DNA of 64,000 bases from positions 124,001 through 188,000 of the forward strand of contig NZ_CANMOO010000001.1 of assembly GCF_947499585.1 (NCBI RefSeq), read 5' to 3'. Under the pieces are notes generated by a model. The model was not told the origin of the DNA and did no database searches. It saw only the letters and a program-made list of their open reading frames with translations. Source of the DNA: an uncultured Allomuricauda sp. (GTDB lineage Bacteria; Bacteroidota; Bacteroidia; Flavobacteriales; Flavobacteriaceae). Shown in pieces: positions 371 through 32,563 of this stretch. Each line of letters starts with the position of its first letter. Position 1 is the first letter of the stretch. A program made the position numbers and the translations under genes.

Positions 371-2938
371 TCAAAAACTAACCCTGAAGCTAATATTGGG
401 TGTAAGGCCCAAAGAGATGCTTTCCACGGTTTCAATTTGGTTATCCTCCGTAACTCTATAATATTTGTTTAAGCTATTTTTTCGGTTGGTCATATTAAGG
501 AGGGAAATTCCAGTAGTGGCCTTTATTCGCTGGTTAATATTAAATTTATAAATAGCGGAAGCATCTACCCTTAGATAATCAGGGAGTCTACTGCTGTTGG
601 GTGACTCATAATTGATTCTCGCAGGAAAAACAGTGGTATCAAGAGCCAAATCACCTTCTTGGGGTTCCGTAAATGGTTTTCCAGAACGGTAGTTGACCCC
701 CAAACTTAATTTCAGATTTTCGTAGGAATAAGTACCTGCAAAGGTGATGGTATGCCTAATATCTAGATTATTGGGAAAACTATTAGGGTTTATGGCATTA
801 AAGTTATAATCATTTTTGTTGTAAGTATAAGTTAGCCATGTGCTGTAGTTAGTTCCTTTTTTGTTGATTAAAAATTCAACTCCTTTAACATCATAACTAC
901 CAATCTCTCCATTGAATTGATTTTGGTTCTGAAATCCTTGAGTACTGGTGCTTATGCCATCTACTTTTTTGTAAAACCCTTCTACGCCAATGTAGATGCT
1001 GTTCTTATCATAGTTTATTCCCAGAGATCCTTGCTTACTCTTTGTAATGGGCAAAGTATTGTCATCAGATAAAATCCATCTGCGTTTTTCAATACCCAAG
1101 AAATTCTGTTCTAAATCTATAATCTGATTGGTGGTCTGACTCTTAAATTCCCCCAGAACTTCACCCCTTAGATGATTTGCCAACCTAAAATTCAGATTAA
1201 GGCGAGGTTCAACCAAGAACTTTGAAAATGTGCCAAGGTTTTCTATATAGTTAAAACGAACACCTGCTTTACCAATAAATTTATTTTCAGGAGAGCTATA
1301 GCCAATTTCAGTGTGTGGAGCATGAATTCTAATAACTCCCTTTATTTCACTATCAAAAGGTGGTTGCGTAAGGTTGGTGGTATTCGTAATACCTGTTTCA
1401 ATGTACTGATAACCATTGTTCCAGTTGAGGTTCTCCAATAATGAGTAATCTGTATTTAGTTTTATCGCATTTTCCAAAACCTGATTATTCTGAAGTAGAA
1501 GCTGTATTTGATTGCCAAAGAGGTTTTGGGCATCTAAATTATAACGGGAATAATAAATGTTTAAGTTGGAAGAAAGTCTATCCGTCCATTGACTTTGCAG
1601 CTGCCCACCAAAAGATAGATTGGTTTGCTTTAAAACACTATTGGTAGTCTCTAAATCTATAAGATTGGTTTCAATATAATCAAGATTGTTATTGATACTG
1701 ATAAAATTCAACCTTAGTTGGTGCTGGTCATTTACATCATACAAAAGCTTTCCGGTAAAATCGTAAAAAAAGAAATTTTCATCCCTTATAATATCCTCAT
1801 CTACTGCTATGTTATTTTCATTGGTTACTTCACTATCCTGAAAAGCACGATCAAAAAACTTATTATAGGTGGGGGTGTTTAAAAAATCAGTGGTTGATCG
1901 TCTAGCGGAAAATTGTAATCCAATTTTTTCAGTGATAGGGATTTGACCATATACATCCCCACTAATAAAGTTAAACCCAGCACCACCGGTTAAATAATCT
2001 GATAGTTCATTGCTGGTCTCCATTTTTATCACGCTACTTACACCATCTCCATACGCAGAAGGTGTACCATTTTTAATAACGGTTATTTTGTCTGTTAGAT
2101 AAGGATTAAAAGCCGAAATTAATCCAAAGAAATGCCCGGATTGATACATTTTAATACCATTCCATAAAATCAAGTTTTGATCGTTGGTACCCCCACGTAC
2201 ATTAATGTCGGATACGGTTTCATCAATACTTTTAATTCCTGGGAGTGCCTGTAAGGTCTGTAAGATGTCAGGCTCAATTAATCCTGGTAAAATTCCAAAA
2301 TCTGCCGTGTTCAAGGTGATGCTGGCATCTTTATCCCTAATAAGTCCGGTTGTTAGAAACTGATAGACAATCACTTCTTTTAGTTGTTCATAATATTGGG
2401 CCAAGAGTATTTTGGCCACCCCACCTTCTTTTAATAATTCTTCTACATTAATGTATTTAGTGATGTAGCCAAGAGATCTAACCTTCAACGTTGCGTTTCT
2501 AGGAATGTCTTTTAGAACAAAGGTGCCATCTGTGTCTGTGGCAATGGCTATTTCCGTATCAAAAACCTCCACAGAAGCACCTGGAATGGTGTTTTCTGCA
2601 AAGTTGTCCAGTATCTTTCCCCGGACTGTTACAAGGGTGCTTTTGGTAATGGTATAGTAACGGTCATTAAGCTTTTCCGTTTTTATCTGAAACTGGGTCT
2701 CAATGTATTCAAGAATATCAGGCAATGCCACTAAATTGCTAGGTACAGCAACATCAATATCTTCCAAATCTTCATTTATATATGAAAACTTGACATTGAA
2801 TTTGTCTTCTAAATTCTTTATGTACTGAACGAGAGCTATGGGTGTGTCTTGTCCTTCCTGTGCATTTATACTGGAATACAGCAAGAAGAAAAACCCAAAG
2901 AGGAGGCCAAAATGACTACTGCGGAGCTTTTTCAGCAT
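371..2938 (-). CDS. STN-domain TonB-dependent outer-membrane receptor (FecA-like)
   Basis: Using ATG at 2938 the product is about 855 residues; an upstream in-frame ATG at 2974 would place 12 extra residues before an otherwise good signal peptide (MLKKLRSSHFGLLFGFFFLL, cleaved after INAQ). Domains in order: signal peptide 1-27; secretin/TonB short N-terminal (STN) domain about 36-98; carboxypeptidase-regulatory-like beta-sandwich about 104-170; plug with VRGGTNDQN and a 22-strand-type barrel ending in an aromatic residue (SFRVSF). Family knowledge: the STN domain passes ligand occupancy to FecR in the periplasm. The gene overlaps the 3' end of fecR by 23 nt and is translated after it. The ligand is unknown; no enzyme for iron, heme or glycan use is adjacent. 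Confidence 0.9.
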   Translation of the reverse strand: MLKKLRSSHFGLLFGFFFLLYSSINAQEGQDTPIALVQYIKNLEDKFNVKFSYINEDLEDIDVAVPSNLVALPDILEYIETQFQIKTEKLNDRYYTITKSTLVTVRGKILDNFAENTIPGASVEVFDTEIAIATDTDGTFVLKDIPRNATLKVRSLGYITKYINVEELLKEGGVAKILLAQYYEQLKEVIVYQFLTTGLIRDKDASITLNTADFGILPGLIEPDILQTLQALPGIKSIDETVSDINVRGGTNDQNLILWNGIKMYQSGHFFGLISAFNPYLTDKITVIKNGTPSAYGDGVSSVIKMETSNELSDYLTGGAGFNFISGDVYGQIPITEKIGLQFSARRSTTDFLNTPTYNKFFDRAFQDSEVTNENNIAVDEDIIRDENFFFYDFTGKLLYDVNDQHQLRLNFISINNNLDYIETNLIDLETTNSVLKQTNLSFGGQLQSQWTDRLSSNLNIYYSRYNLDAQNLFGNQIQLLLQNNQVLENAIKLNTDYSLLENLNWNNGYQYIETGITNTTNLTQPPFDSEIKGVIRIHAPHTEIGYSSPENKFIGKAGVRFNYIENLGTFSKFLVEPRLNLNFRLANHLRGEVLGEFKSQTTNQIIDLEQNFLGIEKRRWILSDDNTLPITKSKQGSLGINYDKNSIYIGVEGFYKKVDGISTSTQGFQNQNQFNGEIGSYDVKGVEFLINKKGTNYSTWLTYTYNKNDYNFNAINPNSFPNNLDIRHTITFAGTYSYENLKLSLGVNYRSGKPFTEPQEGDLALDTTVFPARINYESPNSSRLPDYLRVDASAIYKFNINQRIKATTGISLLNMTNRKNSLNKYYRVTEDNQIETVESISLGLTPNISFRVSF

Positions 2939-3830
2939 AGAAAAGTACTTTATCACCCTCAAGTTTGTAATCAATATGAGATGGGGTACTTATACTTTTT
3001 AACGCCATATTTAAGTCTGTGTTGCTAAAAGTTCCAGTAAATAACAGACTTTTATCCACATTTTGTGAATTTACTTCGATGTTATATTGTCTTTCCAGTT
3101 CACTAAAAACATATTCCAACGGAATACTATTAAAGCTACTTTCGTTATTTACCCATGATGGTTGTGCGGTATTGGGCTTGGTGGTATCCATAATTTTGCC
3201 ATTAATGACCAAAAAGGATGTGCCAGCTGGTAACTTGGTTTCAGTATTGTTATAGGTTACACTTACTAAGCCTTCATAACAAGTCACCTCAAAAAATCCT
3301 TCTCGGTTTTCCACATTAAACTGGGTCCCCAGAACAGCTACTGTTCCTTGATCTGTAGAGACGGTAAATCGTTTTCCTTTGGCAACTTTAAAAAATGCCT
3401 CACCTTTTAAGGAAACATTTCGTTTTTCATTCCAATTTTTCTCACTAAAAGAGACTCTGGAACCTGCATTTAAGATAATTTCAGAATTGTCCGGTAAGAT
3501 GACTTCAGAACGTTCTGCCAACTGTGCTGTAACAGATTCGTCCAAGGTGCTTACATAAAAATAAGAGCCGGCAAGTAATACAGCAATAACGGCAGCAACA
3601 CGCAAGAATTTTTTAAACGGATTCAATGCAATAACCTTTGGGGCATTACCAATACGTTCTTCTTTTAATTGTTCCAAAGCTTGGTCAACATCAAATTCAG
3701 GAGCTTTCAAAGTTGCTGAAACATCCTTTAATTTCTGGTAGGAGGCGTAAGCTTCGGACTTTTTAAATTCTGCAAGCTCCTCCCCAGAGAGTTCACCGTT
3801 TAACCATTTTGCTAAGTAATTTTCTTGCAT
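2916..3830 (-). CDS. FecR-family anti-sigma factor
   Basis: A 304-residue inner-membrane protein. A cytoplasmic N-terminal helical segment (1-70, beginning MQENYLAKWLNGELSGEE) is followed by one membrane segment about 76-93 (FLRVAAVIAVLLAGSYFYV). Then comes the periplasmic FecR domain (LPDNSEIILNAGSRVSF, LKGEAFFKVAK, VLGTQFNV) and the C-terminal DUF4974 region (IPLEYVFSELERQYNIEV). By family knowledge it holds the sigma factor at the membrane until the STN domain of the receptor signals. It lies between the sigma gene (64 nt upstream) and the receptor, which it overlaps. A 16-bp sequence shared with the divergent lipoprotein gene lies 37 nt upstream of its start, so fecR and the receptor may be transcribed apart from the sigma gene. 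Confidence 0.93.
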   Translation of the reverse strand: MQENYLAKWLNGELSGEELAEFKKSEAYASYQKLKDVSATLKAPEFDVDQALEQLKEERIGNAPKVIALNPFKKFLRVAAVIAVLLAGSYFYVSTLDESVTAQLAERSEVILPDNSEIILNAGSRVSFSEKNWNEKRNVSLKGEAFFKVAKGKRFTVSTDQGTVAVLGTQFNVENREGFFEVTCYEGLVSVTYNNTETKLPAGTSFLVINGKIMDTTKPNTAQPSWVNNESSFNSIPLEYVFSELERQYNIEVNSQNVDKSLLFTGTFSNTDLNMALKSISTPSHIDYKLEGDKVLFYAEKAPQ

Positions 3831-3867
3831 GATTTCTATGCTTTATACCTTTATAACAATTATCTTA

Positions 3868-3883
3868 TAAAAAACCCTACTTT
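3868..3883 (-). promoter_or_regulatory. Candidate ECF-sigma promoter for fecR-receptor operon
   Basis: On the minus strand this reads AAAGTAGGGTTTTTTA. The identical 16 bases occur on the plus strand at 4441-4456. After a variable stretch both copies continue with a second similar block, TTGTTnTAA, at the same offset. This two-part similarity upstream of two oppositely oriented genes looks like -35 and -10 elements of a dedicated promoter, plausibly read by the adjacent ECF sigma factor. It sits 37 nt before the fecR start, inside the gap between sigma and fecR genes. The sigma specificity is an inference. Confidence 0.6.
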
Positions 3884-3893
3884 TTAATAGACT

Positions 3894-4391
3894 TTAAATA
3901 CCATCAATTTGTTCCCGTAATGTTTTTAATGCCAAATGCATACGTTTTTCAATGGCTTTAATGCTTACTCCCTCCATTTCGGCAATTTCAGCATATTTTT
4001 TCCCATCGATTCTATTAAGTAAAAAAGTAGTTCTTTGGTTTTCGGGCAAATCATTCAATGCTTTGTCCAATTTCTCCTTGTATTCTTTCTCCTCCAACAA
4101 AAACTCTGGAGACTCATTGGAGTGCTCATAAGTTGGTTCTGCGTACTTCAACCTAACTTTTTCCGCCTTAATTACATTTAGGTATAGATTGTTGGCAACC
4201 GTATATAAATATGACTTTGCTTTTTCCGGTGTTACCTTGGAGCAATTTTCCCAAAGTTTTACAAATGCTTCTTGGACAGCATCATGGGATTTCTCCTCAT
4301 TGCCAAATTTATAATATATATAATTGAATACCGTTTTGGAATTAGCCTTGAATATTGAGCTAAAGACTTGCTCTTCGCAAACGTTGTTCAT
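3894..4391 (-). CDS. ECF-type RNA polymerase sigma factor (FecI-like)
   Basis: A 165-residue sigma-70 family protein with region 2 at about 8-75 (HDAVQEAFVKLWENC is the core-binding helix) and region 4 at about 105-160 (LPENQRTTFLLNRIDGKKYAEIAEMEGVSIKAIEKRMHLAL, a helix-turn-helix that reads the -35 element). It lacks regions 1 and 3, as is normal for ECF factors. It precedes fecR and the STN receptor, the standard cell-surface signalling order in Bacteroidota. Its own promoter looks housekeeping (TATCTTTG at 4414-4421, minus strand), so the regulator can be made before the signal arrives while its targets have the different shared motif. Confidence 0.95.
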   Translation of the reverse strand: MNNVCEEQVFSSIFKANSKTVFNYIYYKFGNEEKSHDAVQEAFVKLWENCSKVTPEKAKSYLYTVANNLYLNVIKAEKVRLKYAEPTYEHSNESPEFLLEEKEYKEKLDKALNDLPENQRTTFLLNRIDGKKYAEIAEMEGVSIKAIEKRMHLALKTLREQIDGI

Positions 4392-4413
4392 TGAGGAAGG
4401 TTTGTCGATTGCT

Positions 4414-4421
4414 CAAAGATA
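4414..4421 (-). promoter_or_regulatory. Housekeeping -7 box of the sigma gene
   Basis: Minus-strand TATCTTTG matches the Bacteroidota TAnnTTTG -7 consensus and lies 22 nt before the sigma gene start codon at 4391. No clear -33 TTG was found at the expected distance, so the call rests on the -7 box and position only. Confidence 0.5.
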
Positions 4422-4440
4422 TTTTAAAAAAAATTAAGAT

Positions 4441-4456
4441 AAAGTAGGGTTTTTTA
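4441..4456 (+). promoter_or_regulatory. Candidate ECF-sigma promoter for the repeat lipoprotein
   Basis: AAAGTAGGGTTTTTTA, identical to the sequence upstream of fecR on the other strand (3868-3883). It ends 48 nt before the lipoprotein ATG. The downstream block TTGTTTTAAGG aligns with TTGTTATAAAGG of the other copy at the same spacing. This places the lipoprotein in the probable regulon of the neighbouring sigma factor. Confidence 0.6.
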
Positions 4457-4504
4457 CTTGAGAGTTGTTTTAAGGTTGTATTCTAACTGAAAATCCAAAT
4501 CGTT

Positions 4505-6268: not shown

Positions 6269-6290
6269 AATATTTCCCCAATTTTTTTGA

Positions 6291-6327
6291 AAAGGACGGC
6301 TATCCCCAAAGCCGTCCTTTTCTTTTT
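6291..6327 (+). terminator. Rho-independent terminator after the repeat lipoprotein
   Basis: A perfect 10-bp stem, AAAGGACGGC (6291-6300) and GCCGTCCTTT (6311-6320), with a 10-nt loop, followed by TCTTTTTATT. It lies 22 nt after the lipoprotein stop and separates it from ffh. Confidence 0.9.
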
Positions 6328-32023: not shown

Positions 32024-32563
32024 ATGGTGGAATCATTATACAGAAAGCACTATAGCAAACTATATCAATATGGTTGCCTTGTGCACAATGATTCCGTGAA
32101 AGTGGAAGATACCATTCAGAACTTTTTTGTTTGGACTTTGGAGCATTCAGAAAAATTAAAGGACATCAAAAATTTTGAAGCGTTTGCATGCAAAGCGATT
32201 CGAAAAAACCTTATTCATCGTATTATTAAGGATAACCGGTCCAAAAAAAATAAGGATAATTACTTGGTGACCCTTGTTAATGAAAAATCGATTACCTCTG
32301 TAGAAAAGGAAATAATGCAAGCAGAGGAAAGTTCATGCTTAAAAATGAACTTGAAAAATGCCATAGAAAAATTACCGGACAAGCAAAAGGAAATCATCTA
32401 CCTGAAATACTATGCTAATTTCTCTTATAAGGAAATTGAAGACATAATGAACGTGAGCAACCAAGTAGCTCGAAACTATGTTTCCAGGGCCCTTAAAAAA
32501 CTGAAAAACTCCATATTTTCAGAAAAAATAAGGTCTTTTATAGTGTCTGCTTTTTTAGTTTAA
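32024..32563 (+). CDS. ECF-type sigma factor of the SusCD operon
   Basis: A 179-residue sigma factor with region 2 (YRKHYSKLYQYGCLVH, VEDTIQNFFVWTLEH) and region 4 (LPDKQKEIIYLKYYANFSYKEIEDIMNVSNQVARNYVSRALKKL). The final ~12 residues (IRSFIVSAFLV) are hydrophobic, often seen in the Bacteroidota SusCD-linked ECF group. It heads a sigma, FecR, SusC, SusD operon and should direct transcription of that operon when FecR is signalled by the STN domain of SusC. Region 4 differs clearly from that of the sigma factor at 3894, in line with separate promoter specificities. Confidence 0.94.
   Translation: MVESLYRKHYSKLYQYGCLVHNDSVKVEDTIQNFFVWTLEHSEKLKDIKNFEAFACKAIRKNLIHRIIKDNRSKKNKDNYLVTLVNEKSITSVEKEIMQAEESSCLKMNLKNAIEKLPDKQKEIIYLKYYANFSYKEIEDIMNVSNQVARNYVSRALKKLKNSIFSEKIRSFIVSAFLV

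Follow-up and report, generated by a model that had tools for sequence, protein, structure and literature searches.

The window analyzed here, by which we mean the whole 64-kb stretch of DNA, carries a group of genes formed by an ECF sigma factor, a FecR-like sigma regulator, a TonB-dependent receptor and a divergently oriented repeat lipoprotein (table 1), with SRP54 (ffh) and folD, both identified by Pfam, as neighbors. Two elements of a FecI-type system are present, namely sigma regions 2 and 4 and a FecR-domain regulator located beside the sigma gene; against NCBIfam TIGR02985 (Sig70_bacteroi1) the sigma factor scored 123.8 bits, below the curated cut-off of 126.4. The fecR and receptor ORFs overlap. 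Pfam recognized no N-terminal STN domain in the receptor, whose residues 40-97 gave only a weak match to FecR_C (E 0.019). Four other genera (L123, L126-L128) preserve the association of the receptor, fecR, sigma and lipoprotein genes, and there the ffh and folD neighbors are also kept, as judged by eye.

The lipoprotein reached the curated cut-off of no Pfam or NCBIfam family. AlphaFold2 modeled it with modest confidence (mean pLDDT 68.8, pTM 0.35), and single domains of it match the lipocalin-like structures 5byp, 4qrl and 4zgf in Foldseek (probability 1.00, TMt 0.52-0.59, E 2e-3 to 8e-3); C-terminal lipocalin-like repeats are hence no more than a prediction from a weak model. Five Foldseek matches at E<=0.001 were TbpB chains with TM-scores of 0.11-0.14, and these were not relied on. 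In some species (L132, L134, L137) lipoproteins of about 158-160 aa adjoin the repeat lipoprotein, with 26-35% identity over short stretches, and it is possible that such small relatives reflect the gain or loss of repeats. Terminator-like sites such as the one behind the lipoprotein gene number two in the stretch, with 1.3 expected.

Table 1. Features of the sigma locus and, for contrast, the second sigma gene of the window
Feature	Position	Strand	Evidence or remark
TonB-dependent receptor	371..2941	-	Pfam PF13715 (CarbopepD_reg_2) 1.2e-11, PF07715 (Plug) 1.6e-08; downstream of fecR
FecR-like sigma regulator	2916..3830	-	Pfam PF04773 5.4e-20, PF16344 6.3e-13
Putative ECF-type promoter of fecR, probably of the receptor too	3851..3880	-	GTAGGGTTTTTTATAAGATAATTGTTATAA, no mismatch to bipartite pattern
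ECF sigma factor, 165 aa	3894..4391	-	Pfam PF08281 5.4e-16, PF04542 3.8e-11 (regions 4 and 2)
Housekeeping-type -7 box of sigma gene	4414..4421	-	TATCTTTG; TAnnTTTG, 22 nt before sigma ATG
Putative ECF-type promoter of lipoprotein gene	4444..4473	+	GTAGGGTTTTTTACTTGAGAGTTGTTTTAA, no mismatch; -35 at 4444-4449
Repeat lipoprotein, 587 aa	4505..6268	+	ORF; signal peptide and TSC lipobox by eye
Intrinsic-terminator-like stem after lipoprotein gene	6289..6322	+	13 pairs, T-rich tail
Second ECF sigma gene (contrast)	32024..32563	+	No such promoter nearby

A bipartite motif on both sides of the sigma gene

The 16-mer AAAGTAGGGTTTTTTA occurs in exactly two perfect copies in the window, one on the minus strand between the sigma gene and fecR (3868-3883) and the other on the plus strand in the gap that separates the sigma gene from the divergently read lipoprotein gene (4441-4456); for 64 kb, counting both strands, a first-order Markov model predicts 0.0003 exact copies. 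Downstream of the two copies, and at an equal offset, are TTGTTATAA and TTGTTTTAA, both of which fit TTGTTnTAA, and the combined pattern GTAGGGTTTTTTA-N8-TTGTTNTAA is matched without a mismatch at each of the two promoter positions of table 1. An earlier note, made from the sequence alone, had claimed that an identical 16-mer precedes both fecR and the lipoprotein gene and that TTGTT-n-TAA lies at an equal offset beyond it; both statements held, at the coordinates given here. The leading AAA and the T6-A tail of the 16-mer differ between species, and the informative unit is therefore GTAGGGT-N14-(T/G)TGTT and not the full 16-mer.

An orthologue of the sigma factor is present in all 35 of the other genus genomes compared (79-98% identity), and the conservation footprint was drawn from the best 30 of 36 orthologous loci. 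The lipoprotein-side site is found in every one of these (30/30, <=3 mismatches of a 30-column pattern). The more degenerate fecR-side site is found in 28/30 at <=6 mismatches of the 30-column pattern and in 29/30 with a looser pattern; in the remaining locus (L040) the contig ends 127 nt past the sigma match. The fecR-side site lies 48-50 nt upstream of the fecR ATG in all 29 measurable loci, and its distance to the last sense codon of the sigma gene drifts from 16 to 187 nt in 29 loci; the constancy of the former and the variability of the latter imply that the site moves with fecR. The lipoprotein-side site is 50-53 nt from the sigma ATG in 30/30 loci. Such conserved sites probably represent an ECF promoter that is read by the adjacent sigma factor; recognition by this particular sigma is an inference made without expression data.

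The sigma gene has a promoter element of another type. A TAnnTTTG box precedes it in 30/30 orthologous loci, 20-23 nt upstream of the ATG, as TATCTTTG in 17 and TATATTTG in 13, and the earlier claim that this gene has a different, housekeeping-type -7 box consequently held. The -35 of the lipoprotein promoter is 22 bp from this opposite-strand box in the window, and the separation is 20-22 bp in all 30 loci. Of 19 further loci, 17 have the box, with a gap to GTAGGG of 20-22 bp in 13 genus loci and of 23-24 bp in four loci from other genera; no such box was seen before the sigma gene in the two others, L124 and L125, whose sigma homologue is more distant. If TAnnTTTG is taken to span -12 to -5 (PMC9723704), GTAGGG would occupy roughly positions -33 to -40 in the sigma promoter. 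The spacing makes it possible, by inference, that the housekeeping and ECF holoenzymes exclude each other at the sigma/lipoprotein intergenic region. The constitutive expression of sigma that had been suggested is therefore unproven, because feedback by occlusion is possible wherever the ECF -35 is held so close to the sigma -7 box.

Distribution of the promoter pattern in genome, genus and family

The 3.77-Mb genome was scanned with the reversed pattern as a control. The 16-mer alone was rejected as a functional unit, having 17 matches at <=2 mismatches versus 27 in the reversed controls. The bipartite form passed the same scan, with five matches versus no controls for the relaxed pattern (<=3 mismatches) and four versus none for the strict pattern, GTAGGGTWWWWW-N9-TTGTTNTA. 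The fifth relaxed match, C1:350154, falls inside an ORF of 449 aa and was discounted as a chance occurrence. The four strict sites precede fecR, the lipoprotein gene, a small RNA described below and a 55-aa ORF. Of two checks that the earlier note had proposed, the one on genome-wide abundance was thus failed by the 16-mer and passed by the bipartite motif; the other, on whether matches cluster before lipoproteins, was not borne out in this genome.

In 60 genomes of the genus the strict pattern gave 116 matches versus a single reversed control; 55 genomes had at least one site and five had none. The sites precede lipoprotein genes (44), fecR (22), the small RNA (27), the 55-aa ORF (9), a 27-aa ORF (7) and other sequences (7), two of the last preceding a glycosyltransferase-2 ORF (L387 by Pfam, L391 by likeness). 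This partition was partly manual: two lipoprotein assignments (L385, L407) were made by eye, three of the nine 55-aa sites were placed by an identical or near-identical spacer, and one of the seven 27-aa sites (L402) by likeness of its spacer.

The 55-aa and 27-aa ORFs both encode hydrophobic proteins. The 55-aa ORF (C1:1189220-1189387 in the present genome, behind the strict plus-strand site C1:1189125) was intact in 6/6 genomes read, and its variable columns number 23, 13 and 45 at codon positions 1, 2 and 3; a spacer of its type follows the promoter in 9/60 genus genomes. This ORF (MDVVKEII..., L103, L105-L109) has a conserved 5' leader, ACAACAACTAATTACATCCCAATAA in the present genome. The 27-aa ORF (MNTFFSVLLFLLALN..., L118-L122, L389) stands behind a promoter of the same kind in several species; it was present in 5/5 loci read and in L389, and is absent from the four strict sites of the present genome.

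Across 299 genomes of the family, the strict pattern was matched 120 times in 73 genomes, versus 5 controls. When these sites were assigned to targets, the six belonging to G000 and G020 were omitted. Beyond the genus, 76 strict sites lie in genomes with a close sigma orthologue, of which 57 are at fecR (15), the lipoprotein gene (20) or the RNA (22) and 19 were matched to none of the three. Ten of these 19 belong to a single genome (G300, L409-L418), which has a 61%-identical sigma and none of whose strict sites was assigned to the three core targets; its regulon may possibly have been rewired or expanded. Those family genomes outside the genus that have no close orthologue contain 38 strict sites; ten adjoin sigma homologues of about 53-58% identity, and the other 28, which include the four at L124 and L125, stayed unassigned.

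It could be argued that the motif is a chance occurrence or a T-rich repeat without function, and it is true that, with <=3 mismatches allowed, the window shows no excess of the 16-mer over shuffled sequence (3 matches versus 2.59, the sole additional one, at 32525-32540, being within the second sigma ORF). Against this stand the sites found at nearly all orthologous loci, the excess of strict matches over controls in the genus and the linkage of promoter and RNA reported below, which together leave this reading all but excluded.

The promoter is also specific among the sigma loci scanned. The genome has 36 region-4 matches, 30 of them above the cut-off, and the promoter scan covered 26 of these 30 loci. 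The TTGTT-type promoter was found only at the present locus, the 25 others being without it. At the second sigma locus of the window (L152), the non-coding DNA for about 1.5 kb either side of region 4 is free of GTAGGG-type sites, in agreement with the earlier note. Sites resembling GTAGG or TAGGGT without a TTGTT block were seen at L143, L150, L158, L162 and L164. The genome encodes one sigma homologue at E<=1e-30. At paralogue loci of 45-53% identity (L138-L142), no GTAGGGT-N14-KTGTTNTA match was found in the DNA examined. That pattern is present at L124 and L125, in another genus, whose sigma homologue is about 52% identical. Because homologues of about 52-58% identity elsewhere carry the same type of promoter, the preference is likely to be a property of a wider group of sigma factors, recognition again being inferred, and paralogues may share sites where they are present.

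One further locus of this genome deserves mention on its own account. At L145, the same pair as L011, a sigma gene is divergent from a FecR gene (Pfam FecR 3.9e-20), and between the two genes is GTAGGGGTTTTTTGTCAAATTCGTA (G000:C2:17589-17604), with a similar -35 and a CGTA -10; GTAGGG and TTCGTA are separated there by a spacing equal to that of the present promoter. This pair may offer a way to study how ECF sigma factors differ in -10 specificity.

A structured RNA element behind a distant site

The strict minus-strand site at C1:1663716 precedes an intergenic RNA element of about 110 nt. Found in nine genomes, the element starts from GAAAATTGCTATGA and continues through a hairpin region and the invariant ATGTTTAGGTTGGTTTTGATTTTATT to a GC-rich stem with T behind it. 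Eight of the nine sequences formed an alignment (A2), L111 being mostly N-masked and excluded, and the same number served to build a covariance model (R1) from which the promoter was left out. The fold of the present genome's copy has a z-score of -4.62, and four copies from other genera range from -3.44 to -4.05. At E<=0.01 the model found the RNA in 58/60 genomes of the genus and in 54/299 of the family, 52 of these being among the 297 outside the genus; the family search scored 13 candidates per genome, so that its negatives are weak. No match to R1 was obtained in G035, the nearest relative by sigma identity, nor in G029, which is 71% complete. A search at the level of the order gave matches in 6/148 genomes at E<=1e-3, four within the family and two borderline ones outside it.

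The linkage of promoter and RNA was examined at 58 loci, the best 30 from the 58 genus genomes and the best 28 from the 52 other family genomes with a match. A promoter (<=1 mismatch to GTAGGGT-N14-KTGTTNTA) starting <=130 nt upstream of the RNA is present at 56/58 loci (29/30 in the genus and 27/28 elsewhere) versus 0/2,316 control windows drawn from the same loci. A referee might object that five of the 58 (L174, L175, L178, L181, L192) were training sequences of R1 that had first been found through their promoter; with these removed the figure is 51/53. Of the two misses, L199 has a site with two mismatches and L218 an exact one situated 146 nt upstream. From the start of the promoter to the R1 match the distance is 29-33 nt in 54/58 loci. 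In one locus, L224, the exact conserved segment is absent.

These observations bear on a rival reading in which a DNA-binding regulator uses the conserved block as its operator, the block then not being a promoter recognized by sigma. Promoter and operator cannot be separated by sequence comparison, and the sigma-gene promoter, at its constant short distance in 30/30 loci, is a place where a regulator could sit. Against the operator we would cite the spacing of the two blocks, which is the same whatever kind of site they precede, the constant distance to the RNA, the setting around an ECF sigma gene and the L011/L145 pair, in which GTAGGG and TTCGTA at the same spacing fit the logic of a -35 and a -10. 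We consider the operator unlikely and retain the ECF promoter as the preferred interpretation.

Over 55 distinct RNA sequences, 96.9% of the stem cells pair, and compensatory stem cells number 62 versus 13.1 in shuffles, none of 500 shuffles being as high; the terminator stem accounts for 46 of the 62. The alignment used was fitted to R1 and therefore leans towards the model. The fold and the covariation show the element to be a short structured RNA with a covarying intrinsic terminator; its transcription is inferred in the absence of expression data. None of the families of Rfam 15 reached its gathering score at the eight loci scanned, six of them with the RNA, the best overlap with the RNA being isrK in L207 at 20.2 bits versus a gathering score of 50.

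The intergenic transcript might alternatively encode a tiny peptide, and an ATG-initiated frame, seen by eye, does cross the conserved segment in the genus. The element does not look coding, however, because one-base indels after the segment shift both frame and stop between species and the segment is invariant in nucleotides, wobble positions included, in 8/8 genus sequences, whereas the 55-aa ORF varies mostly at third positions; the stems of the RNA, moreover, covary. A peptide is for these reasons improbable, and we continue to regard the element as an RNA.

Searches for targets of this RNA, confined to the present genome and to two regulon leaders, gave no signal. The complement of its conserved segment has 42 matches in the present genome versus 58 controls and is not enriched; 30 of the 42 were inspected, the RNA itself being among them. 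Predicted duplex energies between this segment and the leaders of the lipoprotein and fecR genes, at 11 loci each, were no better than those with shuffled leaders that preserve base content only (lowest fraction 0.195).

The RNA tracks the sigma orthologue across the family. A close orthologue (E<=1e-60, >=61% identity) is present in 48/299 genomes and the RNA, at E<=1e-3, in 42/299; 39 of these 42 are among the 48 (Fisher p 1.3e-36, uncorrected for shared ancestry; RNA matches weaker than 1e-3 were unused). Nine of the 48 orthologue genomes are without an RNA match at this threshold, and G121, G277 and G288 have weak matches and no close orthologue. This co-occurrence is relevant to a second-sigma reading, in which the fecR and lipoprotein promoters belong to the present sigma and a different ECF sigma of similar preference reads the distant sites of the RNA and the small proteins. 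Such a division is made conceivable by other genomes, where homologues of about 52-58% identity have sites of the same appearance beside them. It is opposed by the single homologue at E<=1e-30 in the present genome, by the 25 other scanned sigma loci without the promoter and by the fidelity with which the RNA follows the close orthologue, and we judge it improbable; a single sigma for all these sites is the reading that we prefer.

A putative ECF regulon with an RNA arm

We propose that the two copies of the motif act as promoters within a single regulon, dedicated to this ECF sigma, which includes an unlinked small RNA. This is the likely interpretation; recognition by this sigma is inferred, there being no transcription start, sigma mutant or binding data. 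In such a scheme the housekeeping sigma would transcribe the sigma gene from its own TAnnTTTG promoter, and FecR and the TonB-dependent receptor would form a cell-surface signaling unit that works like FecI/FecR/FecA, with ligand-induced signaling an assumption. A signal from the receptor would render the sigma active, which would then read GTAGGGT-N14-(T/G)TGTTnTA promoters. Its outputs would be, first, fecR and probably the receptor, if the inferred co-transcription is real; second, the lipocalin-repeat lipoprotein; and third, the unlinked small RNA of about 110 nt, which is structured and has an intrinsic terminator. The 55-aa or 27-aa hydrophobic proteins may also be among the outputs in some species. 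The RNA would most likely base-pair via its conserved UUUAGGUUGGUUUU segment and constitute the non-coding arm of the regulon, although the pairing is only inferred and targets have not been found.

Measured against this scheme, the remaining claims of the earlier note fared as follows. That the match has the form of a bipartite promoter is supported by the fixed spacing to the fecR ATG, by the excess of genome-wide matches and by the uniqueness among the sigma loci scanned; the same three lines support a dedicated regulon, which proves larger than was proposed, since it likely extends to a conserved small RNA and to small hydrophobic ORFs if recognition by the sigma is as inferred. That FecR, the receptor and the lipoprotein respond to the signal fits the promoter evidence, and the response itself is inferred. 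For the receptor responding together with FecR, the fecR promoter and the overlap of the ORFs are seen, and co-transcription is inferred.

A bolder reading goes further and holds jointly that in Bacteroidota a TonB-receptor-coupled sigma of the FecI/FecR type runs a compact envelope-response regulon, that its most persistent distant member is a trans-acting sRNA which evolved independently of the sigma-E RNAs, and that the holoenzyme of this sigma sets a limit on the sigma gene itself. The last element is suggested by the -35 of the ECF promoter being fixed 20-24 bp from the housekeeping -7 box in close-orthologue loci. Taken as a whole, we would place this reading slightly on the doubtful side.

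The E. coli FecI-FecR-FecA system resembles the present one in its ECF sigma, FecR regulator and TonB-dependent receptor, and in the transcription of the sigma gene by the housekeeping sigma (PMC9249621), a feature that is putative here. In E. coli the only promoter under FecI control is that of fecA, and fecIR is without autoregulation (PMC9249621). The present locus, in contrast, has a putative promoter between sigma and fecR, which would place FecR inside the regulon, and further ones precede the lipoprotein gene and the small RNA; the inclusion of fecR and of an RNA would be what sets this regulon apart from the FecI system.

By analogy, the nearest systems in function are those in which a sigma-E regulon includes small regulatory RNAs, in the enterics (PMC1804206) and in Fusobacterium nucleatum with FoxI/FoxJ (PMC11005410). 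The enteric sigma-E small RNAs include MicA and RybB. They differ from the present case in that our sigma belongs to a FecR/TonB-receptor unit and that no Rfam family reaches threshold in the RNA.

Within the Flavobacteriaceae, the SM6 promoters of Flavobacterium psychrophilum are of ECF type, have CGT as their -10 box and serve T9SS and band-7 genes; a putative regulatory RNA, Rfp11, stands behind an SM6 promoter, and Rfp18 is a conserved structured sRNA (PMC9723704). The SM6 promoters share with ours their ECF type and differ in the -10, which is (T/G)TGTTnTA here. Because Rfp11 follows an SM6 promoter, an RNA behind an ECF-type promoter is not without precedent in this family; the homology of Rfp11 or Rfp18 to the present RNA is open. 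Elsewhere in the Bacteroidota, an EcfO motif has been named for Bacteroides fragilis, and none was known for B. thetaiotaomicron as of 2020 (PMC7366714); the relevant passages of two papers on B. thetaiotaomicron sRNAs mention no ECF-driven sRNA (PMC10861873, PMC10994844). A search of the open-licence literature, most subscription journals being outside its scope, found no description of the present motif and RNA; in one paper (PMC7906972) GTAGGG occurs only within a primer and is irrelevant.

The promoter motifs of individual Bacteroidota ECF sigma factors are scarcely known, and the present motif is tied to a sigma factor whose close orthologue occurs in 48/299 sampled genomes of the family. 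If the regulon includes a small RNA, as appears to be the case, then an RNA arm of FecR-type surface signaling becomes directly testable.
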